DNA of 64,000 bases from Aquimarina agarilytica ZC1 (lineage in GTDB: Bacteria; Bacteroidota; Bacteroidia; Flavobacteriales; Flavobacteriaceae), in contig NZ_JH621253.1 in the NCBI RefSeq assembly GCF_000255455.1, forward strand, positions 69,498 to 133,497, given 5' to 3'. Under the pieces are notes generated by a model. That model saw nothing but the letters and a program-made list of their open reading frames with translations, had not been told where the DNA came from and made no database searches. This document shows, in pieces, positions 7,735 to 54,507 of the stretch; the first letter of the stretch is position 1; the number at the start of each line of letters is the position of its first letter. The translations under genes were made by a program, and so were the position numbers.

Positions 7735-9081
7735 GTGAGTCTAACAATATTTTTTATTGGTATTTGGTTTTTGGTTTTATATTTGAGCGTGAACCGTTTG
7801 AATAAGAATATTGATATTTTTTCTCCAGTGAAATTATTGTCATTTTTATACCTAATTAGAAATGTCCCATACATTTTTTTTACTGCATTAGATATAAATT
7901 TTTTTAATGAAAGGGTTTTAAGATATTTTAATCTATATAATGAAATAACTTTAGATGAAGCTTTTGTAAACTACAGTATTATTCAAACGATTGCTTTTGT
8001 TTTTTTGATTTTGGGTATAAAAAGTGTTTATGTTAAATCAAATGAAGTTACATTAGAGCCATTAATATTTTTTAATAAAAAAGTAATAACTATGACAATT
8101 TATATAGCTTTTTTTATTGGTTTTGGTGGTTTCTTGATTTTTTTAAAAAATGTTGGAGGAATTAATTTTTTATTATCAAACTTAGATGATAGGGTAAATC
8201 TACAAAGTGGTAAGCACACGCTTAAGCTTGCGCCTTTAATGGGTATTTCTACGATATTTTCTATATTACTTATAAAATTGAATGGTTTTAAAAGAATTGA
8301 CTACGTACGTTTTTTTATTTTTTTAATCATTTCTATTATTTGTTTTTCTTCTACAGGAGGAAGAAAGTCTACTTTATATTTGTTAGTGTTATCATTTGCC
8401 TGTTATTCTTACTACATAAAAAGATTTTCTTTGAAAAAGATAAAGAAGAGTAGATTAGTATTTATTTCATCATTGATGTTTTTTTATGTTTTTTTAATGC
8501 CAGTTCTACGTTCCAAAGGAGGTTTTAATAATTTATTAAATGGAGAAGTTAGTTTGGTTGAAACAATAGGCTTAGATAAGTTCTTTTCTACATTATCGTA
8601 CACATATATTGATGTTTTTGCGGTTAATCATTTTAATAAAACAAATCTTTGGAATTTTAGTTCATTATTAACTATTCCATCAAATTTGCTAGATAGAAAA
8701 GCAGCTCAAGATAGACCGCCAATGGATGAAGGTACATATTTTGTTACATCAATAGTAAGGGGTGGAGATTATAAACCCTTAATTGCAAGAAAAGAATTGA
8801 GAGAATTTTCTTTTCCTATTGAAAATATGGGGTTTGCGTATGCAAATGCTTTATTGGTTGGAGTAATTATTTTTTTCTTTCTACAAGGCAAAATATTAGC
8901 ATTACTATACAGGAAGTTCATTCATTCACATTTGAATCCATTTTGGTTTTACATCTATGTATTCTGTGTTTTTAATTTTAATTTTAGCAGTCTTAGGATA
9001 ATGAATTTGTTAACAACGTCATTTTTGTTAATGGTATTTTTTATTTTGTATAAATATATGGAATCAGTTTATGAAAATTAG
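7735..9081 (+). CDS. Wzy-like polysaccharide polymerase (O-antigen polymerase type)
   Basis: A 448-residue integral membrane protein with about ten or more hydrophobic segments and a long hydrophilic stretch around residues 255-365, the layout expected of a Wzy polymerase with its large periplasmic loop. It contains STGGRKSTLY and LRSKGGFNNLL, of the kind seen in oligosaccharide repeat unit polymerases of the WzyE/EpsG type. It starts with GTG at 7735, directly abutting the TAA of the acyltransferase. The polymerase role is inferred from topology and from being the only other polytopic protein beside the flippase in the block; sequence alone does not prove it. Confidence 0.65.
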   Translation: MSLTIFFIGIWFLVLYLSVNRLNKNIDIFSPVKLLSFLYLIRNVPYIFFTALDINFFNERVLRYFNLYNEITLDEAFVNYSIIQTIAFVFLILGIKSVYVKSNEVTLEPLIFFNKKVITMTIYIAFFIGFGGFLIFLKNVGGINFLLSNLDDRVNLQSGKHTLKLAPLMGISTIFSILLIKLNGFKRIDYVRFFIFLIISIICFSSTGGRKSTLYLLVLSFACYSYYIKRFSLKKIKKSRLVFISSLMFFYVFLMPVLRSKGGFNNLLNGEVSLVETIGLDKFFSTLSYTYIDVFAVNHFNKTNLWNFSSLLTIPSNLLDRKAAQDRPPMDEGTYFVTSIVRGGDYKPLIARKELREFSFPIENMGFAYANALLVGVIIFFFLQGKILALLYRKFIHSHLNPFWFYIYVFCVFNFNFSSLRIMNLLTTSFLLMVFFILYKYMESVYEN

Positions 9082-17871: not shown

Positions 17872-17902
17872 TTTGCAATCAAATCATAATTTTTTATTAT
17901 TA

Positions 17903-17951
17903 GCCAAAAGCCAAAAGCCAAAAGCCAAAAGCCAACAACCAACAACTAAAA
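17903..17951 (+). repeat. Heptad tandem repeat in the argF'-argB gap (GC phase 7)
   Basis: Units of exactly 7 bases: GCCAAAA four times (17903-17930), then GCCAACA, ACCAACA and ACTAAAA, ending three bases before the argB ATG. An isolated GC at 17875 is in the same phase. It belongs to the same family as the two-armed arrays at 19845-19926 and 52005-52099, but only one arm is clear here. Confidence 0.8.
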
Positions 17952-17953
17952 AA

Positions 17954-18733
17954 ATGGAAAAGCTATTAGTAGCCAAAATAGGAGGGAACATAGTTGATAA
18001 TGAAGATGCATTGCAAAATTTTTTAAAAGATTTTGCGGCTATAGATCAACCAAAAATTTTAGTACACGGTGGAGGGAAAATAGCAACACGTATTGCCGAA
18101 AAATTAGGAGTACAAACTCAGATGATTAATGGTAGGCGTATCACTTCTAAAGAAAATTTGGATATTGTTGTACAGCTCTATGCTGGCTTAATAAATAAAA
18201 ATATAGTGGCAGCATTACAGGCTACAGCATATTGTAATGCCATTGGATTTACTGGAGCAGATGCAAATGTTATAAAAGCAGTAAAACGCCCCGTTAAAGA
18301 TATTGATTATGGTTTTGTAGGTGACGTAACCGAGGTAAATGAAGATCGTATACATCAATTTATAGCTAATGGGCTAACACCAGTTTTTTGCGCGATTACT
18401 CATGATGCAAATGGACAGTTATTTAATACTAATGCCGATACCATAGCCTCTCAGATAGCAGTGGCTTTAAGTAGTTATTATGAGGTGTCATTGTATTATT
18501 GCTTTGAATTAAAAGGAGTGTTGACAGATATAAAGGATAAAGATTCGGTAATAGAAAAAATAGATACAGAGGAATATTCCAAATTAAAAGCACAAGGTGT
18601 TATAGCAGATGGCATGCTTCCTAAAATGAAAAATTGTTTTGATGCATTGGAAAAAGGAGTAGCAGAGGTACACATTGCAAATGCAGAATTTGTAAACAAT
18701 CAAGATGTAGTACATACCACATTAGTGCTGTAA
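17954..18733 (+). CDS. argB: Acetylglutamate kinase (N-acyl-glutamate kinase)
   Basis: Phosphorylates N-acylglutamate (probably N-succinylglutamate if ArgF' is the succinyl type) in arginine synthesis. With the ATG at 17954 the protein has 259 residues and begins KLLVAKIGGNIVDN, the amino-acid-kinase phosphate loop. ILVHGGGKIATRIAEKLG at about 36-53 and MINGRRITSKENLDIVV at about 57-73 (substrate binding) follow, and INADT-like FNTNADTIASQIAVAL plus ADGMLPKMKNC are ArgB signatures. The frame stays open upstream through the heptad repeat to 17861, but that part encodes only low-complexity QKPKAKSQ and is not a credible N-terminus. Confidence 0.9.
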   Translation: MEKLLVAKIGGNIVDNEDALQNFLKDFAAIDQPKILVHGGGKIATRIAEKLGVQTQMINGRRITSKENLDIVVQLYAGLINKNIVAALQATAYCNAIGFTGADANVIKAVKRPVKDIDYGFVGDVTEVNEDRIHQFIANGLTPVFCAITHDANGQLFNTNADTIASQIAVALSSYYEVSLYYCFELKGVLTDIKDKDSVIEKIDTEEYSKLKAQGVIADGMLPKMKNCFDALEKGVAEVHIANAEFVNNQDVVHTTLVL

Positions 18734-48547: not shown

Positions 48548-50350
48548 CTAAAAACAGTATTTATTTTCTGCAGTAACCTTATCGGCAATAATATTACGCA
48601 AGGCCACTACATTAGGCATATTTTGATATTTGGTAAAACGCTTTAATCCCATAAGCATCATACGTTGTTCATCGCCTTCAGCAAAACTAGCAATACCTTC
48701 TTTAGCTTTACTAGTAATGTCTTCAATGGCATTAAATAAATATAATTGAGTCATAGCAATTTGTGCTTTTTGAGACTCTTCACCAAAACGTTTTATATTT
48801 TTTTCAGTTCTTAAAATAGTAGATTCTGTCATGTATATTTCGATCAGAATATCACTTGCTGCTAAAAGTAATTGTTGATGTTCTTCTAATTGAGGGCCAA
48901 ATTTTTGTACGGCACTACCAGCAACCATTAAGAATACCTTTTTAAGTTTAGCCAAAATAGCTTTTTCTTCAGAAAGTACTTCAGAATAATCAGGCGTGTC
49001 AAATGAAGGAATACCCGTTAATTCATCGGCTACTGCCATAGCAGGACCTAATAAATCTACATGTCCTTTCATTGCTTTTTTAACTAACATTCCTACACAA
49101 AGCATACGGTTAATTTCGTTAGTACCTTCGTAAATACGAGATATACGAGCATCTCTCCAAGCAGACTCCATTGGAGTATCGGCAGAGAACCCCATACCTC
49201 CATATATTTGAATTCCTTCGTCGGAACAGTTTTGAACATCTTCAGAAACAGCCACTTTTAGTATAGAACATTCTATAGCATATTCTTCAACGCCTTTTAA
49301 TTCGGCTTCTTGATGCGAATTTCCAGAAGCTTCACGAATAGCTATACGATCTTCGATATTTTTGGCAGCACGGTATGATGCGGATTCACCAGCATAACAA
49401 TTAGTAGCCATTTCAGCTATTTTTTTACGAATAGCACCAAATTGAACAATAGGTGTTTTAAACTGAATACGTTCGGCAGCATAATTTACACCACTAGTAA
49501 TTACCCTACGTTGTGCATCTAAACAAGCAGCGGCTAATTTTATACGACCAACATTTAAGGCATTCATGGCAATTTTAAACCCATTCCCTCTTTCCGAAAG
49601 CATATTTTCGGCAGGGACCCTGGTATCACTAAAAAATACCTGTCGGGTAGAGGAAGAATGAATTCCTAATTTATGCTCTTCTTCACCCATGGTAATACCA
49701 TTACTAGGATCATTTTCAACAATAAATCCAGTAATGTTTTTATCATCTTCAATACGTGCAAAAACTATGAATACATTACAAAATCCTGCGTTTGAAATCC
49801 ACATTTTTTGTCCCGAGATACTATATGATTTTCCATCATCACTTAACACCGCTTTTGTTTTACCACTATTGGCATCAGATCCAGCACCTGGTTCGGTTAA
49901 ACAATAAGCACCAAACCATTCACCAGTAGCTAGTTTTGGAACATATTTTTTACGTTGTTCTTCGGTTCCATATAAGGTAATTGGCATAGTACCAATACCT
50001 GTATGTGCACCAAAGGCAGTACCTATTGATCCTGTAGCTCCAGAGATATAATCACATACCAACATGGTAGAAACAAATCCCATTCCAAGACCATCATATT
50101 TTTCTGGTACAGCAACCCCTAAAAATCCAAGTTCTCCTGCTTTACGCATAACTTCTTCGGTAAGGGCATAGTCTTTCTTTTCAAAACGATCTTTATGCGG
50201 CCAGACTTCACGGTCAACAAATTCAGTAACCGCTTCTTTCATCATTTTTTGTTCCTCCGAAAAATCTTCAGGAGTAAACACATCTTCACATTTTGTTTCT
50301 TTAACAAGGAATTGTCCTCCTCGTAATATGTCTTTTTCTGTTGTTTCCAT
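48548..50350 (-). CDS. Acyl-CoA dehydrogenase
   Basis: FAD enzyme that makes the trans-2-enoyl-CoA in the first step of beta-oxidation. At 600 residues it is longer than the 380-residue standard form, with an extra C-terminal helical region (about 440-600) like VLCAD/FadE-type Bacteroidota homologues. Visible motifs: YCLTEPGAGSDANSGKT at about 149-165, KMWISNAGFCNVFIVFARI at about 180-198, QIYGGMGFSADTPMESAWRD at about 380-399, and RIYEGTNEINRMLC at about 403-416, which carries the catalytic-base region. It is the last gene of the fad operon on the minus strand and is separated from the thiolase by the four-helix-bundle element. Confidence 0.93.
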   Translation of the reverse strand: METTEKDILRGGQFLVKETKCEDVFTPEDFSEEQKMMKEAVTEFVDREVWPHKDRFEKKDYALTEEVMRKAGELGFLGVAVPEKYDGLGMGFVSTMLVCDYISGATGSIGTAFGAHTGIGTMPITLYGTEEQRKKYVPKLATGEWFGAYCLTEPGAGSDANSGKTKAVLSDDGKSYSISGQKMWISNAGFCNVFIVFARIEDDKNITGFIVENDPSNGITMGEEEHKLGIHSSSTRQVFFSDTRVPAENMLSERGNGFKIAMNALNVGRIKLAAACLDAQRRVITSGVNYAAERIQFKTPIVQFGAIRKKIAEMATNCYAGESASYRAAKNIEDRIAIREASGNSHQEAELKGVEEYAIECSILKVAVSEDVQNCSDEGIQIYGGMGFSADTPMESAWRDARISRIYEGTNEINRMLCVGMLVKKAMKGHVDLLGPAMAVADELTGIPSFDTPDYSEVLSEEKAILAKLKKVFLMVAGSAVQKFGPQLEEHQQLLLAASDILIEIYMTESTILRTEKNIKRFGEESQKAQIAMTQLYLFNAIEDITSKAKEGIASFAEGDEQRMMLMGLKRFTKYQNMPNVVALRNIIADKVTAENKYCF

Positions 50351-50371
50351 TTTATTTTAGATTTTAAAAAA

Positions 50372-50402
50372 AGAAGAGAGAAAATAGAGGATAGAAAATA
50401 GA
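50372..50402 (+). repeat. Heptad array AGA x5, one arm of an inverted repeat
   Basis: AGA occurs at 50372, 50379, 50386, 50393 and 50400, exactly 7 bases apart. The 31-bp stretch matches the reverse complement of 50772-50802 at 24 of 31 positions. The two arms bracket the small gene at 50404-50757. Confidence 0.8.
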
Positions 50403-50403
50403 T

Positions 50404-50757
50404 TTATTTAAGTCTATTTTGAAAACCCATAGCCATTCGCTGGAATTCTTCTATTTTTTCTTCAAGTATTGTTAAATTTTCTTTGTTTATATATTTTCTA
50501 TGCAACGCGATTAATAATTGAGTACTCAATTCAAAAGAAGAGCCTAACGAAATGTCTAAAAAATGGCTGAATGATTTGTCTGTTCTAGAAGATCCTTCAG
50601 CAATATTACTTGGTATGGAAATAGAGCACCTACTTATTTGTGAGCTTAAATCATATCTTTCGTGTTTTGGAAAATTTTGAATTAAGTCAGAAATACTATT
50701 TGCGATCTCCAAACTAAGTTGCCATATTTTTAGATTTTTATAATTATGTCTCTTCAT
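50404..50757 (-). CDS. Four-helix bundle protein (S23/IVP family)
   Basis: A 117-residue all-helical protein. KIWQLSLEIANSISDLIQNF at about 10-29, FPKHERYDLSSQISRCSIS at about 29-47, IPSNIAEGSSRTDKSFSHFL at about 48-67, and the ELSTQLLIA helix are the signature of the four-helix-bundle family first seen in 23S rRNA intervening sequences, related in fold to the Avd accessory protein of diversity-generating retroelements. Its function is not known. It lies inside the beta-oxidation operon between thiolase and acyl-CoA dehydrogenase, and is bracketed by inverted heptad arrays that end 1 base after its stop and begin 14 bases before its start. This suggests arrival as a unit. Confidence 0.9.
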   Translation of the reverse strand: MKRHNYKNLKIWQLSLEIANSISDLIQNFPKHERYDLSSQISRCSISIPSNIAEGSSRTDKSFSHFLDISLGSSFELSTQLLIALHRKYINKENLTILEEKIEEFQRMAMGFQNRLK

Positions 50758-50771
50758 TATGATTTTTAAAG

Positions 50772-50802
50772 TCTATTCTCTTTCTTCTATAGTCTTTTTT
50801 CT
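50772..50802 (+). repeat. Heptad array TCT x5, second arm of the inverted repeat
   Basis: TCT occurs at 50772, 50779, 50786, 50793 and 50800, exactly 7 bases apart, mirroring the AGA array at 50372-50402. It ends three bases before the thiolase stop codon (50806-50808 on this strand). Confidence 0.8.
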
Positions 50803-50805
50803 TAA

Positions 50806-51996
50806 TTAAGAAAGAAACTCAAATATCCCACAAGCACCTTGTCCAGTACCTACGCACATGGTTACTGCACCGTATTTACCTTGCATGTTTTGTTTACGCA
50901 TTTCATCAAATAACTGTACCGAAAGTTTTGCTCCTGTACAACCTAGCGGGTGACCCAATGCTATGGCTCCACCATTTACGTTTACAATGTCTTTATTAAG
51001 CCCAAGCTCTCTAACTACAGCTAAGGATTGCGAGGCAAAGGCTTCGTTTAACTCAATTAATGATAAATCATCTTGCTTTAAACCGGCTTGTTTTAATGCT
51101 TTTGGAATTGCTTTAACTGGTCCAATTCCCATAATTCGGGGTTCAACTCCTGCAGCTGCATAGTTCACTAAACGAGCTATTGGCTCTAGGTTAAGTTCCT
51201 TAACCATGTCCTCACTCATTACCATTACAAATGCAGCACCATCACTCATTTGTGATGAGTTACCAGCAGTAACACTTCCGCCTTGAGCAAAAACAGGACG
51301 CAATTTAGCCAGGACTTCCAGACTAGTTCCTTTACGGGGACCTTCGTCTTTAGTAACCGTATAGGATTTGGTAGCTTTTTTACCATTTTCATCTACATAT
51401 ACTTGTTCTACATTAATAGGTACAATTTGATCTTGAAAACGATTTTCGGCTTGCGCTTTTAAGGCTTTCATGTGTGAATTATAAGCAAACTCATCTTGAT
51501 CCTCACGTGATACCTTGAATTGGTTAGCTACAGCTTCGGCCGTATTTCCCATTCCCCAGTAATAGTCCTCATGGCCTGATTGCGCAATATCGTAATTCAA
51601 TTCGGGTTTATTTCCTGTCATAGGAACAGAACTCATACTTTCAGCTCCACCGGCAATAATACAATCGGCCATTCCGGCCTGAATTTTTGCAGTGGCAATA
51701 CCAATAGTTTCAATCCCCGAAGAACAAAAACGATTCACCGTCACCCCAGGAACATCAATAATATCTAATCCCATTAAGGAGATTAATCTGGCCATGTTTA
51801 GTCCTTGAGAACCTTCGGGCATGGCATTACCAACAATTACGTCATCAATACGTTTTTTATCTAATTGAGGTAATTCTTTCATCATGTGTTGAATGGTTTC
51901 TGCGGCCAATTCATCACTTCGCTTAAATCGGAAAACGCCTTTTGGTGCTTTTCCAACCGCTGTTCTATATGCTTTTACTATATATGCTTGTTTCAT
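50806..51996 (-). CDS. fadA: Acetyl-CoA C-acyltransferase (thiolase)
   Basis: Thiolytic cleavage of 3-ketoacyl-CoA, last step of beta-oxidation. Starting at the ATG at 51996 gives 396 residues beginning KQAYIVKAYRTAVGKAPKG; the frame continues upstream to 52029, but that part comes from the intergenic heptad repeat. The nucleophilic cysteine is in VTVNRFCSSGIETIG at about 82-96; the other catalytic residues are in ALGHPLGCTGAKL (His) and CVGTGQGACG (Cys) near the C-terminus. NEAFASQSLAV is the usual oxyanion-region motif. The upstream gene encodes the partner hydratase/dehydrogenase. Confidence 0.92.
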   Translation of the reverse strand: MKQAYIVKAYRTAVGKAPKGVFRFKRSDELAAETIQHMMKELPQLDKKRIDDVIVGNAMPEGSQGLNMARLISLMGLDIIDVPGVTVNRFCSSGIETIGIATAKIQAGMADCIIAGGAESMSSVPMTGNKPELNYDIAQSGHEDYYWGMGNTAEAVANQFKVSREDQDEFAYNSHMKALKAQAENRFQDQIVPINVEQVYVDENGKKATKSYTVTKDEGPRKGTSLEVLAKLRPVFAQGGSVTAGNSSQMSDGAAFVMVMSEDMVKELNLEPIARLVNYAAAGVEPRIMGIGPVKAIPKALKQAGLKQDDLSLIELNEAFASQSLAVVRELGLNKDIVNVNGGAIALGHPLGCTGAKLSVQLFDEMRKQNMQGKYGAVTMCVGTGQGACGIFEFLS

Positions 51997-52004
51997 TATA
52001 TTTT

Positions 52005-52099
52005 GCTTTTGGCTGTTAGCAATTGGCAATTGGCTTTCAGCGCACTTAATTATTAAACTTTTTAGCCAATGGCTAATAGCTAAAGGCTTATAGCATGAG
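52005..52099. repeat. Two-armed GC-heptad repeat between thiolase and hydratase/dehydrogenase genes
   Basis: Left arm: GC at 52005, 52012, 52019, 52026, 52033 and 52040 (GCTTTTG, GCTGTTA, GCAATTG twice, GCTTTCA, GCGCACT). Right arm: GC at 52065, 52072, 52079, 52086 and 52093 (GCCAATG, GCTAATA, GCTAAAG, GCTTATA, GCATGAG). The right arm resembles the reverse complement of the left at about 20 of 28 positions. It fills the gap between the two genes and lies 8 bases from the thiolase start. Confidence 0.82.
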
Positions 52100-52101
52100 A
52101 T

Positions 52102-54507
52102 TTAATTTCTCAATGGTTTACCTCGTTTTAACATGTGTTCGATGCGTTCTAATGTTTTACGTTCGGTACATAGACTTAAAAAGGCTTCACGTTCCAAATC
52201 CAGTAAATATTGCTCAGTGACTAAGGTTGGCTCAGATAAATCACCACCAGCCATTACATAGGCTAATTTGTTAGCGATTTTTTTATCGTGTTCACTAATA
52301 TAATTACTAGCTTCCATAGAGTCTGTTCCCACTAAAAACATTCCCAAAGCTTGTTTTCCAAGTACTTTTACATCTTTTCGTTTTACGGGTTGCGTGTAAC
52401 CTTGTTCTGCCATTAATTTAGCATAAGATTTTGCTACTCCAATTTGACGGTCTTTATTGACTACAACTATATCTTTTCCTTTTTGAAGAATTCCTGTATC
52501 GTATGCTTCATAAGCAGAAGTAGACACTTTAGCCATTCCAATAGTTAAAAAGTGTTCTTGCAAAACGTTTAATTCAACATCTCCTTTTTGGAAATTATCG
52601 CTTGCACGAAGTGCCATTTCCTTGGAACCTCCACCACCAGGAATGACACCAACACCAAATTCAACCAGACCAATATATGTTTCTGCAGCAGCAACAACTT
52701 TATCGGCATGTAATGAAAGTTCACAACCGCCACCTAAGGCCATTCCATGTGGCGCGGCAATAGTTGGAATAGAGGAGTAGCGCATACGCATCATGGTATC
52801 TTGGAAATATTTGACAGCCATATTAAGCTCATCATATTCTTGCTCTACAGCCATCATAAATATCATTCCGATATTGGCGCCAACTGAAAAGTTTGCCGCT
52901 TGATTTCCTACAACCAATCCTTGGTAATCTTTTTCGGCTAAATCGATAGCTTTATTTAAACCAGCCAAAACATCACCACCAATGGTATTCATTTTGGATT
53001 GGAATTCTACATTTAAAATACCGTCACCTATATCTTCAACAACAACACCAGAGTTTTTAAATACTTCATTTGATTTTCGGATGTTATCCAAAATAATAAA
53101 TGAATCTTGCCCCGGTTTTTTTGATTGTGTTTTAGAAGAAATATCATAAAAATAAGTAGCGCCTTCTTTTACGCTGTAAAAGGTATCACTTCCGCTAGAA
53201 ATCATATCAGTAACCCAATCTGCTACCTCTAAACCTTCTGCTTTTATAAATTCAATTCCTTTTTTTACACCTACAGCATCCCATATTTGAAAAGGACCGT
53301 GTTCCCATCCGAAACCAGCTTTCATGGCATCGTCAATTTTATACAGGGCATCAGTAATTTCGGGAATACGAAAAGAAACATATGAAAACAATGCAGCAAA
53401 GCTTTTACGATAAAATTCACCAGCTTTATCTTTACCACCTACTAAAACCTTAAAACGATCGACAACTTTGTCAATTGACTTTGTCATTTCAAGCGTAGGG
53501 AAGGAAGCGCGTTTTTTAGTTCTATAATCTAATGTATCTAAGTCAAGCGAAAGGATTTCAGTTTTTCCTTCGGCATTTTTAGTCTTTTTATAGAAACCTT
53601 GTCCTGTTTTACTTCCTAACCATTTATTTTCCATCATTTTTGTAATGAAATCAGGAAGCTTGAACAAGTCATGTTGCTCATCATTAGGGCAATTGTCAAA
53701 AATACCATTAGCCACATGTACTAAAGTATCTAAACCAACAACATCAACCGTACGGAAAGTAGCTGATTTTGGACGACCAATAACAGGTCCAGTTAGTTTA
53801 TCTACCTCTTCAATAGTTAGGCCTAAATCTTTAACCGCATGAAATAAACTTTGTATACTAAAAATACCAATTCTATTTCCAATAAATGCAGGAGTATCTT
53901 TGGCAACTACGGAAGTTTTTCCTAAAAATTTATCCCCATATCCATTAAGGAAATCCAATACCGATTGATCTGTTTTAGGGCCAGGAATAATTTCGAATAA
54001 TTTTAAGTAACGAGCAGGGTTAAAGAAGTGAGTTCCACAAAAATGTTTTTGAAAATCATCACTACGACCTTCGCTCATAAATTTAATAGGAATTCCGGAA
54101 GTATTACTTGTAATTAAAGTTCCCGGTTTTCGATGCGCGTCTAATTTTTCAAATACGGATTTTTTAATATCCAAACGTTCCACCACCACTTCAATAATCC
54201 AATCAACTTCGCTCACCTTAGCAATATCATCTTCTAAATTACCAGTAGTAATGCGTTTAGCTAAGCTTTGGTGGTATATTGGAGATGGTTTTGATTTTAG
54301 TGAAGTAGTTAAAGCAGTGTTTACTAATCTGTTTCGAACTACTTTATCTTCTAATGTTAGGCCTTTAGCTTTTTCCTTATCATTTAATTCTCTAGGAACA
54401 ATGTCCAGTAATACTACTTCCACACCAATATTAGCAAAGTGGCAAGCAATACCGGAACCCATAATTCCCGAGCCAATGACGGCTATTTTGTTTATATTTC
54501 TTTTCAT
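52102..54507 (-). CDS. 3-hydroxyacyl-CoA dehydrogenase / enoyl-CoA hydratase bifunctional protein
   Basis: Carries out the two middle steps of beta-oxidation. The 801-residue protein has the dehydrogenase first: NAD motif IAVIGSGIMGSGIACHFA at about 8-25, SNTSGIPIKFMSEG, HFFNPARYLKLFEIIPG at about 160-176 (catalytic His), and FIGNRIGIF. The crotonase domain is at about 490-700 (FSVGANIGMIF; APHGMALGGGCELSLHAD; GLVEFGVGVIPGGGGSKEMA). This order is the reverse of E. coli FadB (hydratase first) but usual in Bacteroidota. The hydratase glutamates lie in GGGCELSLH and GLVEFGVG. It is downstream of the MarR gene and upstream of the thiolase on the minus strand. Confidence 0.93.
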   Translation of the reverse strand: MKRNINKIAVIGSGIMGSGIACHFANIGVEVVLLDIVPRELNDKEKAKGLTLEDKVVRNRLVNTALTTSLKSKPSPIYHQSLAKRITTGNLEDDIAKVSEVDWIIEVVVERLDIKKSVFEKLDAHRKPGTLITSNTSGIPIKFMSEGRSDDFQKHFCGTHFFNPARYLKLFEIIPGPKTDQSVLDFLNGYGDKFLGKTSVVAKDTPAFIGNRIGIFSIQSLFHAVKDLGLTIEEVDKLTGPVIGRPKSATFRTVDVVGLDTLVHVANGIFDNCPNDEQHDLFKLPDFITKMMENKWLGSKTGQGFYKKTKNAEGKTEILSLDLDTLDYRTKKRASFPTLEMTKSIDKVVDRFKVLVGGKDKAGEFYRKSFAALFSYVSFRIPEITDALYKIDDAMKAGFGWEHGPFQIWDAVGVKKGIEFIKAEGLEVADWVTDMISSGSDTFYSVKEGATYFYDISSKTQSKKPGQDSFIILDNIRKSNEVFKNSGVVVEDIGDGILNVEFQSKMNTIGGDVLAGLNKAIDLAEKDYQGLVVGNQAANFSVGANIGMIFMMAVEQEYDELNMAVKYFQDTMMRMRYSSIPTIAAPHGMALGGGCELSLHADKVVAAAETYIGLVEFGVGVIPGGGGSKEMALRASDNFQKGDVELNVLQEHFLTIGMAKVSTSAYEAYDTGILQKGKDIVVVNKDRQIGVAKSYAKLMAEQGYTQPVKRKDVKVLGKQALGMFLVGTDSMEASNYISEHDKKIANKLAYVMAGGDLSEPTLVTEQYLLDLEREAFLSLCTERKTLERIEHMLKRGKPLRN

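Follow-up and report, generated by a model that had tools for sequence, protein, structure and literature searches.

Our results suggest that the four-helix-bundle (4HB) gene located between a thiolase and an acyl-CoA dehydrogenase (ACAD) gene of Aquimarina agarilytica ZC1 belongs to a small cassette of about 430 bp, composed of the 4HB gene and its own inverted arms of 7-base repeats, which is probably mobile and would spread to the same site in a homing-like manner. Judged by sequence comparison, it is well supported that the gene and its arms form a unit and that this unit is turned over at the same site, and movement at the same site between species is seen.

The unit occupies positions 50372-50802 (431 bp) of the window, i.e., the whole stretch of 64,000 nucleotides of contig NZ_JH621253.1 that was analysed (Table 1). 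AGA recurs in 7-base steps at 50372, 50379, 50386, 50393 and 50400, with out-of-phase AGA also at 50375 and 50377, and TCT recurs in 7-base steps at 50772, 50779, 50786, 50793 and 50800, with extra TCT also at 50777 and 50783. As an inverted repeat, the two arms agree at 24 of 31 positions, and a looser and longer alignment of the same arms extends over 44 nt at 73%. One arm is 1 base past the 4HB stop and the other is 14 bases before the 4HB start; the heptad steps, the inverted match, this spacing and the location between thiolase and ACAD are all as described in the initial annotation of this DNA. When the two gaps around the 4HB gene were dinucleotide-shuffled 400 times, an equal 31-mer inverted match arose 3 times, and the lag-7 identities in the arms (33/48) were reached in 3 of 5000 shuffles. 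The window copy alone is only moderately unlikely by shuffling, and the case rests on the other copies. The 4HB gene is the only ORF of at least 80 aa between the arms, and there is no transposase gene in the unit. The neighbours of the unit in the window are protein genes, not rRNA, and the Rfam scan of 50200-52200 gave no rRNA and nothing above the gathering score, only one sub-threshold match to another family. The window also contains a gene-less inverted heptad pair, for which 0 of 60 shuffles were as good.

Table 1. Features of the window around the 4HB cassette
Feature	Position in the window	Strand	Basis
Downstream host gene, acyl-CoA dehydrogenase (ACAD)	48548..50350	-	ORF; name read from the sequence
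Right arm in operon sense (4HB stop to ACAD start), heptad-phased	50372..50402	-	AGA on the + strand, five times, every 7 bases
4HB gene, 117 aa, PF05635 / TIGR02436 family	50404..50757	-	ORF list and profile scores
Left arm in operon sense (thiolase stop to 4HB start), heptad-phased	50772..50802	-	TCT on the + strand, five times, every 7 bases
Upstream host gene, thiolase, from ATG	50806..51996	-	ORF (listed as 50806-52029 from TTG); name read from the sequence
Gene-less inverted heptad pair, one arm, in the HADH-thiolase gap	52004..52035		75% complementary to 52064-52095
Gene-less inverted heptad pair, other arm, in the HADH-thiolase gap	52064..52095		Pairs with 52004-52035
Host gene, 3-hydroxyacyl-CoA dehydrogenase/enoyl-CoA hydratase (HADH)	52102..54507	-	ORF; name read from the sequence

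The 4HB protein of the window matched PF05635 with 114.6 bits (cut-off 33.8, E 3.2e-33) and TIGR02436 with 103.7 bits, and its Pfam/NCBIfam matches included no nuclease family and no Y1 transposase domain. The AlphaFold2 model (mean pLDDT 94.5) was similar to XCC0516 of Xanthomonas campestris (PDB 2gsc, TM 0.88-0.93), to 2rld of B. thetaiotaomicron (TM 0.78-0.81) and to Avd (4dwl, TM 0.74-0.77, E 0.07-0.4). Foldseek matched Avd both alone and in the DGR ribonucleoprotein (4dwl, 8ub7; TM 0.61-0.85 over the listed chains, E 0.05-0.8), in agreement with the resemblance of the family to Avd that had been stated in the initial annotation and that is also noted in the literature (PMC10053308). The X. 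campestris relative is a homopentamer, and PF05635 proteins are said to have no known function (PMC4990558). The differences at codon positions 1/2/3 of the 4HB frame were 299/178/831 in 24 operon pairs and 217/154/492 in 10 pairs of copies nested in host genes, and this third-position bias indicates that the 4HB protein is maintained by purifying selection.

Of 91 genomes, among them that of the window, 66 had PF05635; copy numbers within the genus ranged from 0 to 20 per genome, and a family match was found in 235 of 296 genomes phylum-wide. The genome of the window has five PF05635 genes, all of them, by eye, between same-strand genes and with heptad arms differing from copy to copy. The genus/order set consisted of 125 distinct genes among the best matches listed (131 hits minus identical ones; five from the window's genome), 123 of which had full flanks, and the phylum set of 48/48 fetched loci. 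The named set was made of the best 80 of 513 relatives of one nested 4HB query (78 or 77 with full flanks); these best 80 span many phyla, including Verrucomicrobia, Planctomycetes, Acidobacteria, Clostridia, Proteobacteria, Chloroflexi and Spirochaetes. The Chlorobiota set contained 26 genes of one family from 29 loci (24 with full flanks), and its phylum label rests on the 100% match of one 4HB protein.

The autocorrelation of the flanks peaked at lags 7, 14 and 21 in every set, with a smaller peak at lag 8 in the genus/order set; units of 8 bases instead of 7 were observed in some copies (L016, L017). Lag-7 identity was 0.415 in the named set, as compared to 0.264 at lag 6 and 0.247 at lag 8, and 0.43 in the Chlorobiota family. 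The left arm matched the right arm of its own copy better than those of other copies in the genus/order set (30.8 vs 22.0), where 52 of 123 copies exceeded the 95th percentile and 17 the 99th, as compared to 8/123 in the same orientation and 1/116 for segments 400 bases farther out. The same was true of the phylum set (36.4 vs 20.5; 30/48 above the 95th percentile, 4 in the same orientation), the named set (40.1 vs 24.8; 27/78, 4 in the same orientation) and, with only 7/24 above the 95th percentile against 3/24 in the same orientation, the Chlorobiota set (32.2 vs 20.0). Within junctions, the self match amounted to 2597 in total vs 2264 (sd 53) after permutation, a value reached in 0 of 2000 permutations; at 3 of 10 junctions there was no excess of the self match over the cross match. 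Only 15 of 123 genus/order copies had their own right arm as the top match among all, perhaps owing to arm types shared by the copies at a junction, and 51 of these 123 copies showed no clear period. Strict arrays, for which flanks at least 300 nt away from the arms served as controls, were found upstream in 45/77 and downstream in 38/77 copies of the named set (controls 8/126 and 6/117), in 16/24 and 13/24 of the Chlorobiota set (1/34 and 1/27) and in 10/48 and 12/48 of the phylum set (5/63 and 4/56). In the genus/order set the downstream side had 37/123 vs 23/246, and the upstream side (15/123 vs 20/244) was not clearly above the control. The arms of detected arrays most often had 4-5 heptads. 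Heptad arms are thus carried by other copies of the family, whose lack of them had been considered beforehand as an outcome against the unit; many copies fall below the strict detector, though.

The thiolase-ACAD junction was recovered in 30 loci of 52 genomes, of which 29 were readable (all but L145), 28 without the window's own. The 4HB gene was present in eight of the 29 readable loci, the window among them, and two of the eight belong to another PF05635 branch (L140 confirmed, L142 broken). The gene of L142 is a decayed one, related to the intact one of L140. The junction had no 4HB gene in 21 of the 28 readable relatives; the gap was bare and 30-37 nt long in three of them and longer in the other 18. 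The gene is thus not always carried at this site by relatives; its constant presence with unconserved flanks was the other outcome that had been envisaged as speaking against the unit. Inverted arms without a gene were detected in 8 of 18 gene-less gaps of at least 50 nt, at a threshold of no more than 3/60 shuffles with about one expected by chance, and not every one of them is visibly heptad. In L166 only a right arm is left, like that of L151 by eye.

Heptad arrays also occur apart from 4HB genes. We found 25 lag-7 arrays in 400 kb of the window's genome, three of which are arms of 4HB genes and six of which come from one tandem region, as compared to 0-7 arrays at each other lag from 4 to 13. 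Arrays without a 4HB gene are located at 7748-7784 and 17887-17956 of the window and on three other contigs of the same genome (C8, C10 and C11), and two of the lag-7 arrays of this genome are more than 500 bases long. An intergenic 91-base unit (13 x 7, by eye) without a 4HB gene was noticed at L009:1297-1830, with TCT heptads between GTT-type and AAC-type arrays. Eight genus mates with 0 to 20 4HB copies had 0-2 arrays per sampled 100 kb, and the idea that the 4HB copy number drives the number of arrays was unsupported in these samples. A restriction of arrays to co-directional gaps was unsupported as well (12/472 co-directional, 2/101 divergent and 1/75 convergent gaps).

Both neighbours were on the same strand in 118 of the 122 copies of the 125-gene set with two neighbours; the cassettes lie in sense direction, with median gaps to the neighbours of 42 and 38 nt. 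By gene names that are our reading of the sequences (thiG, hisH etc.), the set has 19 copies at thiG-thiH, 18 at HADH-thiolase (all outside the window's genome), 12 at hisH-hisA, 9 at N8-N6, 8 between metH halves, 6 each at panB-rluA and thiolase-ACAD, 5 at thiD-thiE and 3 at sdhA-sdhB, and further junctions also occur. At L005 and other metH junctions, methionine synthase is split in two ORFs with the cassette between them. A four-helix-bundle gene between guanylate kinase and nicotinate mononucleotide adenylyltransferase appears for two genomes in a listing of phage regions (PMC5524665), and this placement would fit the operon-junction pattern.

In the 4HB tree, from which two of the 125 genes were left out for length or stops, each of 7 of the 11 junction groups could be separated from the rest by a single branch. 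The resolution is weak, with 27 of 120 inner branches starred and the thiG-thiH grouping itself without support. On this weakly resolved tree, 12 junction changes were needed for all 11 groups, the least possible being 10 and the shuffled mean 63, and HADH-thiolase needed 5 changes, thiolase-ACAD 3, N8-N6 and metH 2 each. Because copies at one junction mostly cluster on this tree, free transposition is unsupported. Of the earlier claim that gene and arms are one transposable or RNA-processed unit, the part on gene and arms as one unit was supported, as the arms tend to follow the 4HB gene, and the part on transposition was not supported in the sense of free transposition.

Arm similarity followed 4HB identity given host identity at thiG-thiH (partial r 0.80) and HADH-thiolase (0.78; 0/500 permutations each), the junctions with most turnover, and more weakly at hisH-hisA (0.27, 31/500) and N8-N6 (0.38, 15/500). 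Three pairs at HADH-thiolase had hosts of 97-98% amino-acid identity (86-88% DNA), 4HB proteins of 38-40% and different arms, and by eye the break was at the stop and start codons with the whole gap swapped. The reverse case, 4HB genes of 94-99% DNA identity in hosts of 79-88%, was also found. In L053/L028, with a 4HB gene 98.9% identical and a host 83.2% identical, close similarity reaches from 71 bases ahead of the 4HB start to 80 bases beyond its stop (1 difference before, about 4 in 378 bases and 0 after), and the host beside this stretch is 10-24% different; as the gaps are 47 and 40 bases, about 25 and 40 bases of host sequence were carried along. A differing left arm beside a 4HB gene that is nearly identical over most of its length was found in L081/L032 and, less markedly, in L092/L064, which indicates that arms can change alone. 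The turnover test was conducted on 382 pairs with hosts at 75-92%, which share loci and are not independent. The identity of the element exceeded that of the adjacent host by more than 0.08 in 8 of the 382 pairs, as compared to 0 and 0 in two host control segments, and by more than 0.06 in 17 pairs, as compared to 1 and 7. An element deficit below -0.15 was found in 40 of the 382 pairs (0 and 0 in the host controls), and these low-identity pairs may partly come from faster evolution of the 4HB gene. The pattern seen is that of same-site transfer with short co-conversion tracts, which ordinary homologous recombination could also give, and no recombinase and no target duplication were found for the cassette.

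Some 4HB genes are nested in a host ORF. In 29 of 276 rows, which correspond to 28 distinct loci since L169 and L258 have the same sequence, a host ORF of at least 220 codons spanned the whole 4HB gene plus 45 bases on either side without a stop; L303 is doubtful, its host being mainly downstream, and L278 and L286 begin near a contig end. The query of the named set is itself nested, and the nested share in that set is therefore biased upward. The host frame was always in the same phase relative to the 4HB gene, and among the 276 rows no antisense frame was open in the nested ones and no alternative frame was open in the others. A strict heptad array was present in at least one flank of 16 of the 28 loci. 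Hosts were scanned for 17 of the 28 loci, and 16 of these 17 are DNA methyltransferases of defence systems. PADLOC identified 9/9 hosts of one group as PglX; of the further hosts, those of L264, L270 and L286 are PglX as well, those of L173, L200 and L326 are type III methyltransferases, that of L213 had DrmMI as best match, and that of L303 is a downstream ABC ATPase. Plasmid pglX genes without the insert were found at two sites. In L169 the insert, 148 codons long, separates host residues 273 and 276; this pglX also has a second insert in frame, of about 30 codons, which contains no 4HB gene and is a heptad array at the DNA level (24/28 at lag 7). The PADLOC model PDLC02522 (PglX) was observed to match the insert region of unrelated methyltransferases, i.e., the hosts of L173, L213 and L326, and this profile appears to contain a translated-through 4HB insert. 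As the host frame is open across the 4HB gene, nested copies are probably read through rather than excised, and intron-like splicing of them was judged unlikely for the same reason.

These data bear on several other explanations. The initial annotation had proposed that the arms pair in RNA and loop out the gene, and an RNA-level intervening sequence (IVS), in which the mRNA would form a stem from the two arms and RNase III would remove or detach the 4HB segment between cistrons, would be in line with the sense orientation between same-strand genes and with the IVS of Coxiella burnetii, which has the same ORF family, an inverted stem and heptamers and is cut by RNase III (PMC4990558). We consider this reading unlikely. 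Selection on a sense-RNA stem was not supported: in the arms of 140 loci with alignable arms, G:U pairs did not exceed A:C on the sense strand (176 vs 234; genus/order 59 vs 101, phylum 36 vs 47, named 58 vs 71), save in Chlorobiota (23 vs 15), and mismatched left-right pairs had the same lean in every set. Moreover, the host frame is open across nested copies, and excision would not call for this. Looping out or excision in RNA was not supported; RNA processing may occur in operon copies. A purely mutational origin, in which slippage makes the arrays, template switching at quasi-palindromes makes the inverted matches and 4HB genes are passengers, accords with this lack of an RNA-pairing signature, with the arrays without 4HB gene in the window's genome and with the gene-less inverted arms at the thiolase-ACAD junction. 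However, outside the close relatives of the window, arrays are concentrated at 4HB genes in the named and Chlorobiota sets and the arms go with the 4HB lineage, and we regard a purely mutational origin as improbable.

Vertical inheritance with frequent loss and ordinary homologous recombination of the flanks, with no element-specific mover, could account for the clustering by site and for the correlation of host and 4HB identity at N8-N6 (0.89) and hisH-hisA (0.78). The same correlation is only 0.49 at thiG-thiH and 0.46 at HADH-thiolase, and the excess above 0.08 is centred on the element in the eight non-independent pairs and appears in no host control segment, and we regard this explanation as unlikely. 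A retro-mobile element, with the Avd-like 4HB protein as partner of a reverse transcriptase encoded at another place in the genome, draws on the fold that the predicted 4HB model appears to have in common with Avd. The protein scored 29.6 bits against the Avd equivalog NF033474, below the cut-off of 80, and PF00078 had no match in three copy-rich relatives (G014, G004 and G048, with 20, 11 and 12 copies), where a divergent reverse transcriptase could be missed; a PF00078 enzyme in trans is ruled out as a requirement by these three genomes, and we hold a retro-mobile origin to be very improbable. The preferred reading is the homing-like cassette.

The closest known system is the IVS in the 23S rRNA of Coxiella burnetii, of 428-444 nt, with a 28-bp stem, an S23p ORF, tandem heptamers GACAGAT before the ORF and a cut by RNase III, which has been termed selfish and horizontally acquired (PMC4990558). 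The cassette is similar to it in size, terminal inverted repeats, the PF05635-type ORF and heptamers. Unlike this IVS, which lies in rRNA and has a decaying and probably unexpressed ORF (PMC4990558), the cassette lies between protein genes or inside ORFs and its 4HB gene is under purifying selection, and its arms show no RNA-pairing signature. Insertion sequences in CPR rRNA include PF05635 ORFs in both 16S and 23S genes, and those of LAGLIDADG kinds have ORF-bearing and ORF-less forms at shared sites; in the part of that report considered they are confined to rRNA and the annotated ORFs are mostly homing endonucleases (PMC11270868). MacGregor described in 2015 intergenic direct repeats of the heptamer TAACTGA near start codons, also in some Bacteroidetes, with other heptamers there too, and one set reversed just after a stop codon (PMC4679880). 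The description is centred on one heptamer in direct repeats; in the available part of PMC4679880 no arm pairing around a gene is seen and the terms 'four helix bundle' and 'intervening' are absent, and the corresponding part of PMC10910872 merely names the domain. In the open-licence literature searched, we found no paper linking operon 4HB genes with heptad arms. Avd of diversity-generating retroelements has the four-helix-bundle fold in common with the 4HB protein; unlike Avd systems, the 4HB gene of the window has no reverse transcriptase among its neighbours and fails the Avd equivalog cut-off. RAYT transposases with REP sequences are another case in which a gene lies between inverted palindromic repeats and gene-less repeats occur elsewhere. 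Unlike RAYT, the 4HB protein has no Y1 domain, and the copy-rich genome G004 (11 copies) has no PF01797 match. A Y1 transposase acting in trans was rejected: PF01797 was found in 10 of 12 genomes and neither in G004 nor in G015, which has 0 copies.

If the cassette spreads in a homing-like manner to the same site, its flanks would supply the homology. The arms may form hairpins in the DNA or serve as binding sites. The 4HB protein, with its predicted fold of the homopentamer and of Avd, may bind nucleic acid and protect or mobilise the hairpin. The heptads would grow and shrink by slippage, with the left-right identity renewed within a copy at the DNA level, and the same element, placed in a different transcribed site, would be seen in the rRNA IVS with a 4HB ORF. 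A broader and rather doubtful proposal, which we put forward tentatively, is that heptad-armed 4HB cassettes are bacteria-wide homing elements without a known recombinase, in which a ring-shaped 4HB oligomer would read the 7-nt register, fold the arms into a DNA hairpin and promote its copying at the allelic site that lacks it. This proposal draws on the 4-5 heptads most common in arms with a detected array and on the pentamer of the closest solved relative. A single family would then comprise the operon cassettes, the IVSs of rRNA, the heptad hairpins that have no gene and the dual-coding inserts of methyltransferases from BREX, type III and DISARM systems.

The PF05635 family, which was named for its rRNA setting, gains a general habitat of operon junctions and host ORFs in many phyla. 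The nested class consists of overlapping gene pairs in defence methyltransferases, and the heptamer arrays of unrelated bacteria become linked to a protein family. The cassette may serve as a unit with ends and with a testable behaviour, that of same-site exchange.
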